Of a DNA stretch of 64,000 bases, positions 48,723 to 53,942 are shown piece after piece. Origin of the DNA: Vicinamibacterales bacterium (GTDB taxonomy: Bacteria > Acidobacteriota > Vicinamibacteria > Vicinamibacterales > 2-12-FULL-66-21). The position numbers and the translations under genes were made by a program. The stretch covers positions 1-64,000 of the forward strand of contig DASSPH010000054.1 of the NCBI GenBank assembly GCA_035699745.1, given 5' to 3'. The notes beneath the pieces are model-generated. The model saw nothing but the letters and a program-made list of their open reading frames with translations. It was not told the origin of the DNA and did not search any database. Each line of letters opens with the position of its first letter. Position 1 is the first letter of the stretch.

Positions 48723-48841
48723 CCATTATGCAACGGGAAAACGCGGCGAAAGTTCCTCGGCAATCACACCATTCGTCACGCCGCCGGCGCGGCTGAGGCG
48801 CGAAACGTCGTGCGGTAAGATGGCGTAATCGAGTGAGGATC

Positions 48842-51106
48842 ATGCTGAAACGACTCTGTCTGACGGCCGCGATGGTCGTGCTCGGAACGTTGACAGCGGC
48901 GCAGGGCCCCGCGGCGCGCCCGGGGGCCGGCACGCCGCCCGCGGGGCGAAAGGTGGCGCTCGGCGACTGGCCCGACGCGCGCGGCCCGTTCCGGGACGGC
49001 CGGTCGCTCGAACAGGGACTGATCGACAAGTGGGCGCTGAAGGGGGAGAACTTCCTCTGGCGCGCGCCGTACGGCGGACGTTCGGCCCCGCTCGTAATGG
49101 GCAACCGGGTGTACGTGCAGAACCCCTCCGGGCTCGGCGCATCGCTGCAGGAGCGCGTGATGGCGCTCGACGCCGACACCGGCAAGCCCGTCTGGGAATA
49201 CAAGTTCAACGTCTTCCAGAGCGACGTGCCGCCGCATCGCGTCGGCTGGGCGTCGCCGGCTGCCGATCCCGAGACCGGCAACATCTACGCGATGGGCGTC
49301 GGCGCCACCGTCCTCGCGCTGAGCAAGGACGGCAAGCTCCTGTGGGATCGGTCGATCGGCGAAGAGTTCGCCGCCTTCACCACGCACGGCGGCCGCACGT
49401 CGTCGCCAATCGTCGACGGGAACCTGGTCATCGTCAGCGCCGCGATCTCGAGCTGGGGGACCGGTGCGTCGCGCCAGCATCGCTTCGTCGCGCTCGACAA
49501 GCGGACCGGCGACATCATCTGGATCGCCAGCCCCGGCGGCCGGCCGTACGACACCAATTACTCGGCGCCGGTGATCGCGACCATCGACGGCACGCGCCTC
49601 CTGATCAGCGGAAGTGGCGACGGCGGCGTCTACGCCATGAAGGCGCAGACCGGCGAGAAGGTCTGGAGCTTCATGGCCGCGAAGCGCGCCGTCAATACCG
49701 GCGTGGCGGTGTCGGGCAAGACGGTGATCGTCTCGCACGGCGACGAGAACCTCGACACACCGGAGCTCGGACTGATTGCCGCGATCGACGGCTCGCAGAA
49801 GGGGGAGATCAAGACCACGCTGTGGGCGCACCACGGCAGCCAGTACGGCTTCTCGTCGCCGATCGCCGACAGCGGCCGGGTCTATCAGATCGACAACGTC
49901 GGTCAGTTGAAGGCCTTCGATCTCGAGAAGGGCACGGTGCTGTGGACCGCGGCGGTCGGCACGGCGCAGAAGGCGCCGCCGGTGCTCGCGGACGGCAAGC
50001 TGTACTTCGGCACCGAGGGGGGCAAGGTCTTCATCGTCCGGCCGCATCCCGATCGCGCCGAGATCCTGAGCGAAGTCGAACTGCCGCCCAGCACCGATGA
50101 GAACGCCGGGCAATCCGCCGGGGTGCCCGAACCGGTGTTCGGCGGCATGGCGGTGTCGCGCGGGCGCATCTTCTTCGCGTCCACCGGCGCGGTGTATGCG
50201 ATCGGCTCGAAAGCGGCGAAGCCGCAGACCGGGTTGGCGGTGGACGAACCGTTCGCCGCCGGGCAGGGAGCGCCGGCGTGGCTGCAGGTGTCCCCGACGG
50301 AGCTGGTGCTCAAGCCCGGGCAGGCGGTGAAGCTGCACGTCAAGTCGTTCGACGCGCAGGGGCGGCTGTTGAAAGAGGAAACCGGCGCGACGTGGACGCT
50401 CACCGGCCTGAAGGGAACGGTCGCGGCCGACGGCACGTTCACGCCGGATCCCGGAACGGCGGAGCAGGCCGGCGTGATCAAAGCCACGCTCGGCGCGCTG
50501 TCCGGCGACGCCCGCGCCCGCGTCGTCCGCCAGCTGCCGTGGACGGAGACGTTCGACGCGATGGAAGAGAAGACCGTCCCCCCCGGCTGGATCATCGTCG
50601 GTACCGCGCGGACGGCCGTGGGCACGATCGACGGACAGAAGGCGCTGGTGAAGCAGCCTGACGAGACGATCTTCAAGCGCTATCGCGCGTTCGTCGGTCC
50701 GGTCGATCTCGCCAACTACACGATCGAAGCGGATGTCCGCGGCACGTCGCGGCGGCGCCAGATGCCGGCGCTGGGGGTCACCGCCCAGCGCTACTCGTTG
50801 GTCATCTACGGCAACGACCAGGTGATGAAGATCGAGTCGTGGGGGCCGGAGACGACGCGGTCGGCGGTGGCGCCGTTCGAGTGGAAGCCCGACACCTGGA
50901 TCCATCTGAAGCTGCGCGTCGAGAACATGCCGGACGGGCGGGTCCGCGCGCGCGGCAAGGCGTGGCCGGCCGGGCAGCCGGAACCGGCGAACTGGATGAT
51001 CGAGAAGCTCGATCCGATCGGCAACAAGAAGGGGGCGCCGGGATTTTTCATCGACGCGGATTACGGCGCCGCCATCGACAACATCAAAGTGACGTCAAAT
51101 CAATGA
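48842..51106 (+). CDS. PQQ-like beta-propeller protein with C-terminal lectin-like domain
   Basis: About 754 residues from the ATG at 48842 (an in-frame GTG lies nine bases upstream). The signal peptide is MLKRLCLTAAMVVLGTLTAA. The propeller spans about 30-460 with blades such as VMALDADTGKPVWEYKFN, SKDGKLLWDRSIGEEF and DLEKGTVLWTAAVG. Next is an Ig-like segment (LVLKPGQAVKLHVKSFDAQG). The C-terminal ~190 residues form a concanavalin/LamG-like sandwich (NYTIEADVRGTS, DTWIHLKLRVEN) that could bind glycans. Its stop overlaps the next start as ATGA (51103-51106). Confidence 0.93.
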   Translation: MLKRLCLTAAMVVLGTLTAAQGPAARPGAGTPPAGRKVALGDWPDARGPFRDGRSLEQGLIDKWALKGENFLWRAPYGGRSAPLVMGNRVYVQNPSGLGASLQERVMALDADTGKPVWEYKFNVFQSDVPPHRVGWASPAADPETGNIYAMGVGATVLALSKDGKLLWDRSIGEEFAAFTTHGGRTSSPIVDGNLVIVSAAISSWGTGASRQHRFVALDKRTGDIIWIASPGGRPYDTNYSAPVIATIDGTRLLISGSGDGGVYAMKAQTGEKVWSFMAAKRAVNTGVAVSGKTVIVSHGDENLDTPELGLIAAIDGSQKGEIKTTLWAHHGSQYGFSSPIADSGRVYQIDNVGQLKAFDLEKGTVLWTAAVGTAQKAPPVLADGKLYFGTEGGKVFIVRPHPDRAEILSEVELPPSTDENAGQSAGVPEPVFGGMAVSRGRIFFASTGAVYAIGSKAAKPQTGLAVDEPFAAGQGAPAWLQVSPTELVLKPGQAVKLHVKSFDAQGRLLKEETGATWTLTGLKGTVAADGTFTPDPGTAEQAGVIKATLGALSGDARARVVRQLPWTETFDAMEEKTVPPGWIIVGTARTAVGTIDGQKALVKQPDETIFKRYRAFVGPVDLANYTIEADVRGTSRRRQMPALGVTAQRYSLVIYGNDQVMKIESWGPETTRSAVAPFEWKPDTWIHLKLRVENMPDGRVRARGKAWPAGQPEPANWMIEKLDPIGNKKGAPGFFIDADYGAAIDNIKVTSNQ

Positions 51107-52530
51107 AGAAGATATTCGTCTCCTCCGCTCTGGTCGGCCTCGCGGGCGTGCTGCTGTCGGCCGGCGATCCTCCGGGATCGAAGGACTGGCCGATGTGGGG
51201 CGGCACGCCGGACCGCAACATGGTCTCGTCGATGAAGGGGCTGCCCACCGAGTGGGACCTCAAGACGAAGAAGAACGTCAAGTGGGTGGCGGATCTCGGA
51301 TCGCAGAGCTACGGCAACGCGGTCGTCGCCGGCGGCATGGTGTTCGTCGGCACCAACAACGAGGGCATGCGGGATCCGAAGCAGCCGGGCGATCGCGGCG
51401 TGCTGATGGCGTTCAAGGAGGACACCGGCGAGTTCCTGTGGCAGCAGACGCACGAGAAGCTCGCGTCGGGGCGCGCCAACGACTGGCCGTATCAGGGAAT
51501 CGCCTCGTCGCCGCTGGTCGAAGGCACCAAGCTGTACTACGTGAGCAACCGCGGCGTGCTGCTCTGCCTGGACATCAACGGCTTCAAGGACGGCAACCAG
51601 GGACCGGTCACCAACGAGAAGCTCACCGGGCCGAAAGACGCGGACGTGCTCTGGCAGTTCGACATGATGGAGGAAGTGGGGTCCTACCCGCACAACCTCT
51701 CGAACTCGTCGCCGGTGTCGTTCGGCAACCTGATCTTCGTCAGCACCTCGAACGGCCAGGACGAGAGCCACGTCAACGTCCCGTCGCCGAAGGCGCCGTC
51801 GGTGATCGCGGTCGACAAGGTGACCGGAGAGCTGGCGTGGGAAGACAACTCGGTCGGCAAGAACATCCTGCACGGGCAGTGGTCGACCCCCTCGGTCGGC
51901 AAGATCGGCGGCGTCGATCAACTCGTCAGCGCGCAGGGAGACGGCTGGGTGCGCGGCTACGAGGTGCTCACCGGCAAGAAGCTGTGGGAGTTCGACACCA
52001 ACCCGAAGGACTCGGTCTGGCCGAAGACCCGCAACGAAGTGATCAGCACGCCGGTGATCTGGGAAGACAAGGTCTATATCGCCAACGGACAGGATCCGGA
52101 GCACGGCGAGGGCGTGGGCCACATGTACGCGATCGACGCGACCAAGCGGGGCGACATCACCAAGACGGGCCTGGTGTGGCACTACGACAAGATCCGCCGA
52201 TCGATCTCGACGGCGGCGATCTACAACGGCCTGGTGTTCATCCCCGACTTCAGCGGCTTCCTGCACTGCCTCGACGCCAGGACGGGCCAGGCCTACTGGA
52301 CGCACGACGTGTTCGCCGCAGTGTGGGGCTCGGCGATGGTGATCGACGGCAAGGTCTACCTCGGCGACGAGGACGGCGACATCGTGGTGCTCGAGGCGGC
52401 GAAGACCAAGAAGGTCATCTCCGAGATGAACATGGGCAGCGCGGTCTACGCCACCATGGTGCCCGCGAACGGCCGGCTGTTCTTCAACAACCGCAATCAG
52501 CTGATCGCGGTTTCCACTGATGGAAAGTAA
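51103..52530 (+). CDS. PQQ-like beta-propeller protein
   Basis: 475 residues, signal peptide MKKIFVSSALVGLAGVLLSA. Starts KDWPMWGGTPDRNMVSSMKG and contains a full propeller with AFKEDTGEFLWQQTHEKL, AVDKVTGELAWEDNSVGKNI, GYEVLTGKKLWEFDTNPKDS and CLDARTGQAYWTHDVF. It is translationally coupled to the preceding propeller gene (ATGA), an arrangement suggesting a two-subunit complex. It overlaps the following propeller gene by 11 bp. No dehydrogenase active-site motif is evident. Confidence 0.93.
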   Translation: MKKIFVSSALVGLAGVLLSAGDPPGSKDWPMWGGTPDRNMVSSMKGLPTEWDLKTKKNVKWVADLGSQSYGNAVVAGGMVFVGTNNEGMRDPKQPGDRGVLMAFKEDTGEFLWQQTHEKLASGRANDWPYQGIASSPLVEGTKLYYVSNRGVLLCLDINGFKDGNQGPVTNEKLTGPKDADVLWQFDMMEEVGSYPHNLSNSSPVSFGNLIFVSTSNGQDESHVNVPSPKAPSVIAVDKVTGELAWEDNSVGKNILHGQWSTPSVGKIGGVDQLVSAQGDGWVRGYEVLTGKKLWEFDTNPKDSVWPKTRNEVISTPVIWEDKVYIANGQDPEHGEGVGHMYAIDATKRGDITKTGLVWHYDKIRRSISTAAIYNGLVFIPDFSGFLHCLDARTGQAYWTHDVFAAVWGSAMVIDGKVYLGDEDGDIVVLEAAKTKKVISEMNMGSAVYATMVPANGRLFFNNRNQLIAVSTDGK

Positions 52531-53719
52531 CCGCCGGACGGGTTCACGTTCCAGCACAAAGACCACAAAGATCCCGAAGATCTCCAAGAAGACCAATTGG
52601 GTTTTCCTCGTGATCTTCGTGGTCTTCGTGACCTTTGTGGCGGAGCGCGCGGCGTTGCGCGTCTCGGCGCAGGCCACGCCGGCTGCCAACTGGACGCAGT
52701 TTCGCGGGGACTCGCGCCTGAGCGGCATCGCGGCCGCGGATCTGCCGGCGACGCTGTCGCTGAAGTGGACCTACGAGGCGGGGGAAACGATCGAGTCGTC
52801 GGCCGCGATCGTCGACGGCGTGGTCTACGCCGGCGCCGGGAGCGGCGAGCTGCTGGCGATCGACCTGGCGACCGGCAAGCTGCGGTGGAAGTACGCGACC
52901 GGGAATCTGCTCGGCGAGTCCTCGCCGGCCGTCGCCGGGGACCTTGTTTACATCGGCGACCTCGCCGGCGTCTTCCATGCGGTGCGCGTGAAAGACGGCT
53001 CCAAGGCGTGGACGTTCAGGACCGGGAGCGAGATCAAGTCGTCGCCGGTGCCGGCCGGCGCCATGGTGCTGATCGGCTCGTACGACACTCACCTCTACGC
53101 GCTCGATGCGAAGACGGGCGCGTTGAAGTGGAAGCTGAAGACGGACGGCCAGGTCCACGCGACGCCGGCGGTCGTCGACGGCACCATCTACTTCGGCGGC
53201 TGCGACGAAGAGTTCCGCGCCGTGCGCCTCGCCGACGGCAAGGTGCTGTTCAGCGTGCGGCTCGACGCCAACACCGGCTCCTCCACCGTCATCGACGGCA
53301 CCCGCGCCTATCTCGGCACGTATGCCAACGATGTGGTTGCGGTGGACCTGAAGGCGCGGAAGATCGCGTGGCGCTATCAGGATCCGGATCGCCAGTTCCC
53401 GTTCAACTCGTCGCCGGCGTTGGCCGGCGGCCGCGTGATCATCGGCGGTCGCGACAAGTCGGTGCACGCCATCGACGCCGCGACCGGCAAGGCGGCATGG
53501 AAGTTCGCCACCCGGGCCCGCGTGGATTCCTCGCCGACGCTGGCCGGCGGACGCGTGTTCGTCGGATCGAGCGACGGCCGGCTCTACGCCCTGGACGCGA
53601 AAACGGGGGCGAAGCGCTGGGAGTACGAGGTCGGCGACGCGCTGACCGCCTCGCCGGCGATCGCCGGCGGCCGTCTCGTGATCGGCGCGCAGGACGGCCG
53701 GATTTATTGCTTCGGGTGA
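52520..53719 (+). CDS. PQQ-like (BamB-like) beta-propeller protein with repeat-derived signal anchor
   Basis: 399 residues. About eight near-identical blades (GELLAIDLATGKLRWKYATG, THLYALDAKTGALKWKLKTD, GRLYALDAKTGAKRWEYEVG) form a regular propeller close to the BamB type. The basic and hydrophobic N-terminus (TKTTKIPKISKKTNWVFLVI, then FVVFVTFVAE) is encoded entirely by a 9-bp-periodic inverted repeat at 52555-52639. It acts as a plausible signal peptide or anchor. Start ATG overlaps the previous gene by 11 bp. A large hairpin element follows the stop codon. Confidence 0.9.
   Translation: MESNRRTGSRSSTKTTKIPKISKKTNWVFLVIFVVFVTFVAERAALRVSAQATPAANWTQFRGDSRLSGIAAADLPATLSLKWTYEAGETIESSAAIVDGVVYAGAGSGELLAIDLATGKLRWKYATGNLLGESSPAVAGDLVYIGDLAGVFHAVRVKDGSKAWTFRTGSEIKSSPVPAGAMVLIGSYDTHLYALDAKTGALKWKLKTDGQVHATPAVVDGTIYFGGCDEEFRAVRLADGKVLFSVRLDANTGSSTVIDGTRAYLGTYANDVVAVDLKARKIAWRYQDPDRQFPFNSSPALAGGRVIIGGRDKSVHAIDAATGKAAWKFATRARVDSSPTLAGGRVFVGSSDGRLYALDAKTGAKRWEYEVGDALTASPAIAGGRLVIGAQDGRIYCFG
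52555..52639. repeat. 9-bp-periodic imperfect inverted repeat inside coding sequence
   Basis: The left arm is made of units such as CACAAAGAC, CACAAAGAT and CCCGAAGAT. The right arm is its imperfect reverse complement (GATCTTCGTGGTCTTCGTGA, CCTTTGTGG). The centre contains CCAATTGG. Repeats of this composition occur as intergenic elements in many bacterial genomes (general knowledge). Here the whole element lies within the 5' end of the propeller gene and is read in frame. Confidence 0.75.
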
Positions 53720-53724
53720 AACGA

Positions 53725-53942
53725 GTTCAATCGAAGGAGTCGAAGCGGGCGAAGGAGGCGAAGGGGCTTCGCGTCCGCGTCCGAAGGATCGAAGGGCGAA
53801 GGGTCGGCGGTCGAAGGAGCGCGTCTGAGTTCGCAGTGAACGGGAGTCGACGTTCCTTCGACCGTCGAACCTTCGAATCCCTGACTGGTCTCCTTCGAAG
53901 TTCCTTCGAAACCTTCACCTCCTTCGCTTCCTTCGATTAAAG
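53725..53942. repeat. ~215-bp imperfect inverted repeat of CGAAGG units
   Basis: The intergenic region between the propeller gene and the radical SAM gene is almost wholly a giant hairpin. The outer left arm has AATCGAAGGA, with CGAAGG-type units every 7-9 bp. The right arm has the complement (CCTCCTTCGCTTCCTTCGAT). The inner arms CGGTCGAAGGAGCG (53809-53822) and CGTTCCTTCGACCG (53851-53864) match 13 of 14. It could attenuate or stabilise the transcript, or be a relic of repeat expansion. No gene is seen within it. Confidence 0.75.

Follow-up and report, generated by a model that had tools for sequence, protein, structure and literature searches.

A dispersed palindromic repeat at the start of a beta-propeller gene probably serves as its export signal in a bacterium of the Vicinamibacterales

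In a soil bacterium of the Vicinamibacterales (Acidobacteriota), a dispersed palindromic repeat appears to have inserted at the start of a beta-propeller gene and probably now serves as the export signal of the encoded protein, as judged from the sequence. The gene (52520–53719, forward strand, 399 amino acids) lies in a 64,000-nucleotide stretch of contig DASSPH010000054.1 (GenBank assembly GCA_035699745.1), which we analyzed as a whole and will term the window. The host genome (G000) comprises 6.30 Mb in 110 contigs, and we compared it to the genomes of other Acidobacteriota, including named Vicinamibacterales, most of which are draft metagenome-assembled genomes. The open reading frame encodes a PQQ/BamB-like propeller with orthologues across the order, and it passes the curated Pfam cut-off for PQQ_2 / Beta-prop_ACSF4 (PF13570, E = 8.8e-84; PF13360, E = 3.9e-50). 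It is not BamB proper, because it falls short of the cut-off of the BamB equivalog model TIGR03300 (177 vs. 285 bits). The first 58 residues are MESNRRTGS-RSSTKTTKIPKISKKTNWVFLVIFVVFVTFVAER-AALRVSAQATPAANW, with the middle block coming from an imperfect palindrome in the DNA.

This palindromic element is 103 bp long (52546–52648, no strand assigned), is built of 9-bp units of the form CACRAAGNN, and encodes residues 10–43. Its arms (52547–52594 and 52600–52647) are each 48 nt long and are 75% complementary, with a 5-nt spacer between them. The 9-bp periodicity is apparent in both arms: identity at a shift of 9 is 59% and 62%, as compared to 12–42% at the other shifts from 3 to 15. Across the junction (which we define as the DNA from the stop codon of the upstream propeller gene to the conserved W-x-Q-F-R), self-complementarity has a z score of 11.8 and was matched by none of 200 dinucleotide shuffles. 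The predicted fold of the transcript is also unusually stable (−78.3 kcal/mol vs. −59.2 for shuffles, z = −4.5, 0 of 200). Read in frame from the ATG at 52520, the left arm encodes the basic stretch R-S-S-T-K-T-T-K-I-P-K-I-S-K-K-T, which is followed by WVFLVIFVVFVTFVA; the right arm encodes the hydrophobic stretch V-F-L-V-I-F-V-V-F-V-T-F-V-A and then E-R. These results bear out the first-pass annotation of this DNA, which had described an inverted repeat with 9-bp periodicity, a Lys/Thr-rich left arm, and a Val/Phe-rich right arm. That annotation placed the repeat at 52555–52639, which is slightly too short: by the end motif of the family, which stands at 52546–52570 (+) and 52624–52648 (−) with two mismatches each, the repeat extends to the bounds given above.

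The element appears to provide almost the whole predicted export signal of the propeller protein. A basic n-region (+8/−1) precedes the hydrophobic core LVIFVVFVTFV, which has the best 11-residue Kyte-Doolittle mean (3.36). If the element is removed in silico, then the best 11-residue mean drops to 0.37, so no ancestral core is left and the element stands in for one. Two parts of the predicted signal lie outside the element: R5 and R6, which contribute some of the positive charge, and the flanking c-region (residues 44–52, A-A-L-R-V-S-A-Q-A, 52649–52675; compare ALCAALSAQ in the relative G004), which includes a possible signal-peptidase site, V-S-A-Q-A, with possible cleavage after A52. The earlier proposal that one element supplies both charge and hydrophobicity holds for the core and for the lysine-rich arm but not for these two arginines. 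Either a cleaved signal peptide or an uncleaved anchor is a possible reading of this N-terminus. The mature propeller domain runs from W-T-Q-F-R-G onward (52691–53716; mean column identity of 77% in the orthologue alignment). The proposal gains plausibility from the established fact that random sequences frequently function as export signals.

The element belongs to a dispersed family. There are 31 blastn matches to it in the source genome (E = 5.6e-23 for the best other copy). The end motif is ACGCTCCGGCAC; a degenerate form of it, ACGCTCCGGCACRAAGNNCACRAAG, has 40 matches across the genome and none for the reversed control, and in many copies it stands at both ends in opposite orientation (terminal inverted repeats). 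According to a codon-based gene caller (trained on the window's genes and run over ~1.74 Mb of genome stretches) and our own inspection, all of the copies that we examined are intergenic, except for the window copy and one copy on contig C40. Some of the copies are in arrays (C74 and C40); the one at L018 (C74):36500–37600 is an intergenic array of several copies at a spacing of ~160 bp. We rejected several other candidates for coding use. A right-arm fragment before a gene at C104:98940 is not a signal, as the likely start (the GTG of V-K-Y-R) is downstream; a 346-amino-acid open frame at C73:12594 is intergenic, and the gene downstream of it has its own signal-like start (M-K-N-L-L-A-A-A-A-F-L-L-L); and the C74 and C88 copies are intergenic. 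Rfam gave only sub-threshold matches of the microRNA type, which we dismissed as generic hairpins. More broadly, among the 161 genomes of the order that we searched, 55 contain three consecutive units of the nonamer CACRRAGNN, with control counts close to zero; the version of the unit is genome-specific (for example, CACAGAG, CACGAAG, or CACGGAG). In a search of the 161 genomes with the consensus peptide, the only matches were in the host genome, so the sequence variant is lineage-specific.

The C40 copy is at the start of a second gene (C40:1060–3162), whose product contains an acidobacterial VWFA domain (TIGR03436, E = 2.7e-35) and is not homologous to the propeller. This protein begins with MDAIMANTQTRHGGRSGTKFTKATKLRKTSNWVFFVVFVFFVVFVAERRPSVVSAQAPAD, with the same element in the same frame as in the propeller, and the element-derived peptide is TKFTKATKLRKTSNWVFFVVFVFFVVFVAER. 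Without the element, its best hydropathy is 0.18 instead of 3.56. The locus contains three tandem copies of a 161-bp cassette (L010 (C40):752–1234), which abut as CCATAATGG. The two upstream copies are 94% identical to each other and 70–75% identical to the coding copy. (The second cassette encodes only a short basic-hydrophobic peptide that ends at a stop codon, and the third is fused to the VWFA-domain gene.) Among the relatives of this protein (39–43% identity), the four readable ones have ordinary N-termini, and in a fifth, from G001, CTCTGTG-type units (possibly a right arm by itself) encode the core LALCLCVSVV.

To compare the propeller with its relatives, we extracted the junction from other genomes of the order. 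The orthologues align only from about residue 47, and the N-terminal residues are not shared, so they are not preserved in unrelated codons either. The start codon is conserved: it overlaps the stop codon of the upstream gene (ATGGAAAGTAA, 52520–52530, forward strand), and this overlap, ATGG[AG]AAGTA[AG], recurs in three genera of one family (G000, G002, and G004), with the ATG in frame with the propeller in each. The distance from the upstream stop to the conserved tryptophan is 160 nt in G000, 67 nt in G002, and 166 nt in G004. The differences of 93 and 99 nt are multiples of three, or whole codons. In G002, the overlapping start is followed by MGSRASGLLCLLAVCVSGPSAAQPSSW, a short and ordinary signal-like N-terminus with no element. 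In G004, a different palindrome (GTAGCGCAGCCCTTCAGGGCTGC...) is in frame, and the hydrophobic core downstream of it is kept. Together, the orthologues without the element and the intergenic positions of the other family copies largely support the view of the first-pass annotation that an intergenic repeat was domesticated as a putative export signal.

Palindromes have also appeared at this junction in other lineages. Among 53 distinct orthologous junctions, 14 hold a palindrome that was matched by at most 2 of 200 shuffles, with about one expected; these palindromes come from several unrelated families and are often read in frame. Further junctions hold tandem arrays of 7–8-bp units. An element is in frame in the N-terminus in G109 (MRRATEARRRREPYSSWTLCLCVSVACLSGQT), G012 (RHRARLVLRGLRVSVLLWPVFAIAATTAAQA), G056 (KHEDTKTTNFCRAFVLSWSPLFLCLVSLSAQT), and G054 (WFRGFVVSWFRGFAVSWFRVFVVSW), and, by a looser alignment, in G006 (GWIFSVLSALSVLSVLSLPLTAQA) and G118 (SHKVLLLMCLCASVSLWPVDAQQ), while G051 and G052 have one shared palindrome type. 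We count roughly a dozen lineages in which an element lies inside the coding N-terminus; in about five, the right arm makes up all or most of the hydrophobic core. (We excluded the junction of G016, at L033, from the coding cases although it contains a palindrome, as none of the usual start codons is in frame there.) Of seven species in genus g28, three have plain junctions, one has a tandem array, and the remaining three each have a different palindrome. The palindrome types are scattered on the protein tree, and sister species differ (G032/G084, G079/G080, and G012/G117). G012, G109, and G118 share a palindrome type, possibly from one origin with loss in G117. At the junction of G055 (L068), the signal region is a tandem repeat of ~40 bp with GTGTCTTCGTGG, which repeatedly reads VAAVAVSSWLHFG and is cut by the end of the contig.

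The composition of the repeat explains how a palindrome can encode such a peptide. In the family consensus, T is absent from the left arm and A from the right arm, and because of this, stop codons are rare in both. One phase of the consensus right arm has T in the middle of every codon (F, V, I, or L), as in F-V-V-F-V. In the frame that is reached across the loop, the left arm usually encodes K-T-T, sometimes Q-R-S-Q-R, and sometimes D-H-K. As the element is palindromic, the reverse orientation reads much alike. When we translated 22 copies in both orientations, most had a basic-then-hydrophobic peptide in one frame. This coding pattern is a property of the repeat and is not by itself evidence of selection. 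Since most copies have such a frame in either orientation, the element is in effect a ready-made peptide with the predicted character of a signal anchor.

We propose that a non-autonomous and normally intergenic palindromic repeat inserted in frame just downstream of the conserved start codon of the propeller gene. A single insertion would have delivered the basic stretch and the hydrophobic core in the right order. The ancestral hydrophobic core would have been lost or displaced afterwards, and the element, which is now the sole hydrophobic segment ahead of the mature domain, would act as a Sec signal peptide or as a signal anchor. We infer the insertion and the order of these events, as well as export itself, from comparisons such as those above.

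Several observations weigh against this proposal. First, the export role is deduced from sequence features, and a cleaved signal peptide would be expected to have a shorter and less charged c-region than this one (E-R-A-A-L-R-V-S-A-Q-A), which is why an uncleaved anchor is possible. Second, the relatives that we compared at the junction belong to other genera than the host's. Third, the element is fused to a gene at only two of about 20–25 loci in this genome. Fourth, the left arm is neutral or acidic in G006 and in G051/G052. Finally, among 10 cases (with G051 and G052 treated as separate), the gene's frame is the most hydrophobic of the three right-arm frames in 6, tied in 1, and not in 3, so that the preference for this frame is a suggestive but weak sign of selection.

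We also considered that the palindrome might be retained chiefly for its RNA or DNA structure, such as an mRNA hairpin between cotranscribed genes that affects stability or coupling, with its coding merely tolerated. This would fit with the strong predicted hairpin (z of −4.5), with the many palindromes of this genome that lie between genes, and with the abundance of palindromes and tandem repeats at the orthologous junctions, some of which are wholly upstream of the start codon. This seems unlikely, however, because neither the propeller gene nor the C40 gene has a hydrophobic core apart from the element and because many orthologues have no such structure at the same junction. Also, the coding copy has an arm-pairing score of 34, at the bottom of the span for intergenic copies (34–71), which does not suggest stronger selection on pairing.

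Instead of insertion, the signal region could have become a repeat in place, by local replication slippage and template switching. Several orthologous junctions have tandem arrays of 7–9-bp units without an inverted partner, C40 has a 161-bp tandem duplication, and the repeats at the junction differ even between sister species. But many other contigs carry unlinked copies with the terminal motif and the unit sequence of the window copy, which slippage cannot explain, and we consider growth in place to be improbable.

We likewise give little credence to the idea that the element is merely intergenic, with translation starting downstream of it or at a GTG in the right arm and with the upstream frame open by chance. 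In its favor, stop codons are scarce in most frames of the arms, the family is mostly intergenic, and there are in-frame GTG or TTG codons at −27, −24, −21, −18, and −12 relative to W58. However, three genera have conserved the ATG that overlaps the upstream stop, in frame in each; with a start within the right arm, the basic n-region would be missing, and a start past the element would leave no hydrophobic segment (0.37), whereas the orthologues that we inspected have one.

If the repeat was indeed recruited by insertion, then this is a testable one-step route by which a gene can gain a new export signal from repeated DNA. A palindrome is suited to this task in either orientation, as an arm that encodes hydrophobic residues lies opposite an arm that encodes polar or basic residues. 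At the orthologous junction, the position of the signal peptide is occupied by different repeats, or by none, in sister species; this amounts to a natural experiment, from which the rate and tolerance of signal-peptide replacement could be measured. A broader proposal, which we put forward tentatively as a real possibility rather than as our expectation, is that CACRRAGNN-type palindromes of short units are generic, orientation-independent signal-anchor cassettes that have repeatedly and independently replaced signal peptides across the Vicinamibacterales and probably elsewhere. If this is true, then export signals would be among the fastest-changing, repeat-derived parts of these proteomes. 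There is also a caution for annotation: low-complexity N-termini of the type K-T-T-K / F-V-V-F may be real signal peptides instead of spurious open reading frames.

The element-bearing gene is the last of three neighboring propeller genes with overlapping ends (48833–51106, 51103–52530, and 52520–53719). The middle one (51103–52530, forward strand, 475 amino acids), an open reading frame with Pfam PQQ_2, was our synteny anchor. Directly 3' of the element-bearing gene, at 53727–53940 of the window, is a second short-unit palindrome of TCGAAGGAG-like 9-mers; such units are also present at L020:15795–15957 and L115:16682–16739. In G004 (L031), a palindrome of GGCCACGGAGG-like units lies 3' of the orthologous propeller gene, so there are repeats at both ends of that gene. 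Overall, G000 carries about nine families of palindromes with 7–9-bp units, mostly intergenic, including CGGGTTCTC, GCCGGTA, AACGGAGG, ATCGGGTG, and AAATCTGG (for example, at L107:12241, L209:1, L114:4920, L026:1, and L208:19368).

The closest precedent is RU-2/YAPL, a 168-bp miniature inverted-repeat transposable element (MITE) that supplies a portion of the signal peptide predicted for YPO1552 in Yersinia (Delihas 2007, PMC2759123; PMC2229807). Proteins similar to YPO1552 in other genera have predicted signals that are unrelated to the repeat (PMC2759123), much as in our case. However, the element here is a different one, its two complementary arms encode the basic and the hydrophobic parts, two genes of one genome share it, and unrelated repeats recur at the orthologous junction. 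The Rickettsia palindromic elements (RPEs; Ogata 2000, 2002), as PMC10969869 and PMC2229807 describe them, are in frame in metabolic and housekeeping proteins of Rickettsia, with neutral or slightly harmful effects. The resemblance that we draw is one of behavior: our element is a short palindromic family in frame in unrelated genes (the propeller and the VWFA-domain gene), but it is N-terminal and appears to supply a function. The palindromic amphipathic repeat coding elements (PARCELs) spread between genes and are also palindromic DNA with coding potential, but they encode a tandem 25-amino-acid domain with a 75-nt period (PMC2996958), whereas ours has a 9-bp period and encodes an N-terminal signal-like peptide. 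Repetitive extragenic palindromic (REP) sequences are likewise intergenic palindromes with many copies and species-specific variants, but they are 20–40 bp long and fall into GTAG/CGTC-tagged superfamilies (PMC3733652). The element here is not a short GTAG/CGTC stem-loop but ~103 bp of 9-bp units, and, regarding a Y1 transposase as its mover, the 2 kb around each of the three Y1_Tnp genes in this genome contain no strong palindrome. The dispersed copies do have the shared ends and terminal inverted repeats of a MITE-like, non-autonomous palindromic repeat. We found no description of the nonamer family in the open-license literature. What sets our case apart from RU-2/YAPL is the type of element, the two-arm logic, the two uses in one genome, and the repeated invasion of one orthologous signal region. 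The presence of unrelated repeats in the signal region of the same gene across genera suggests a simple way for bacteria to obtain secretion signals.
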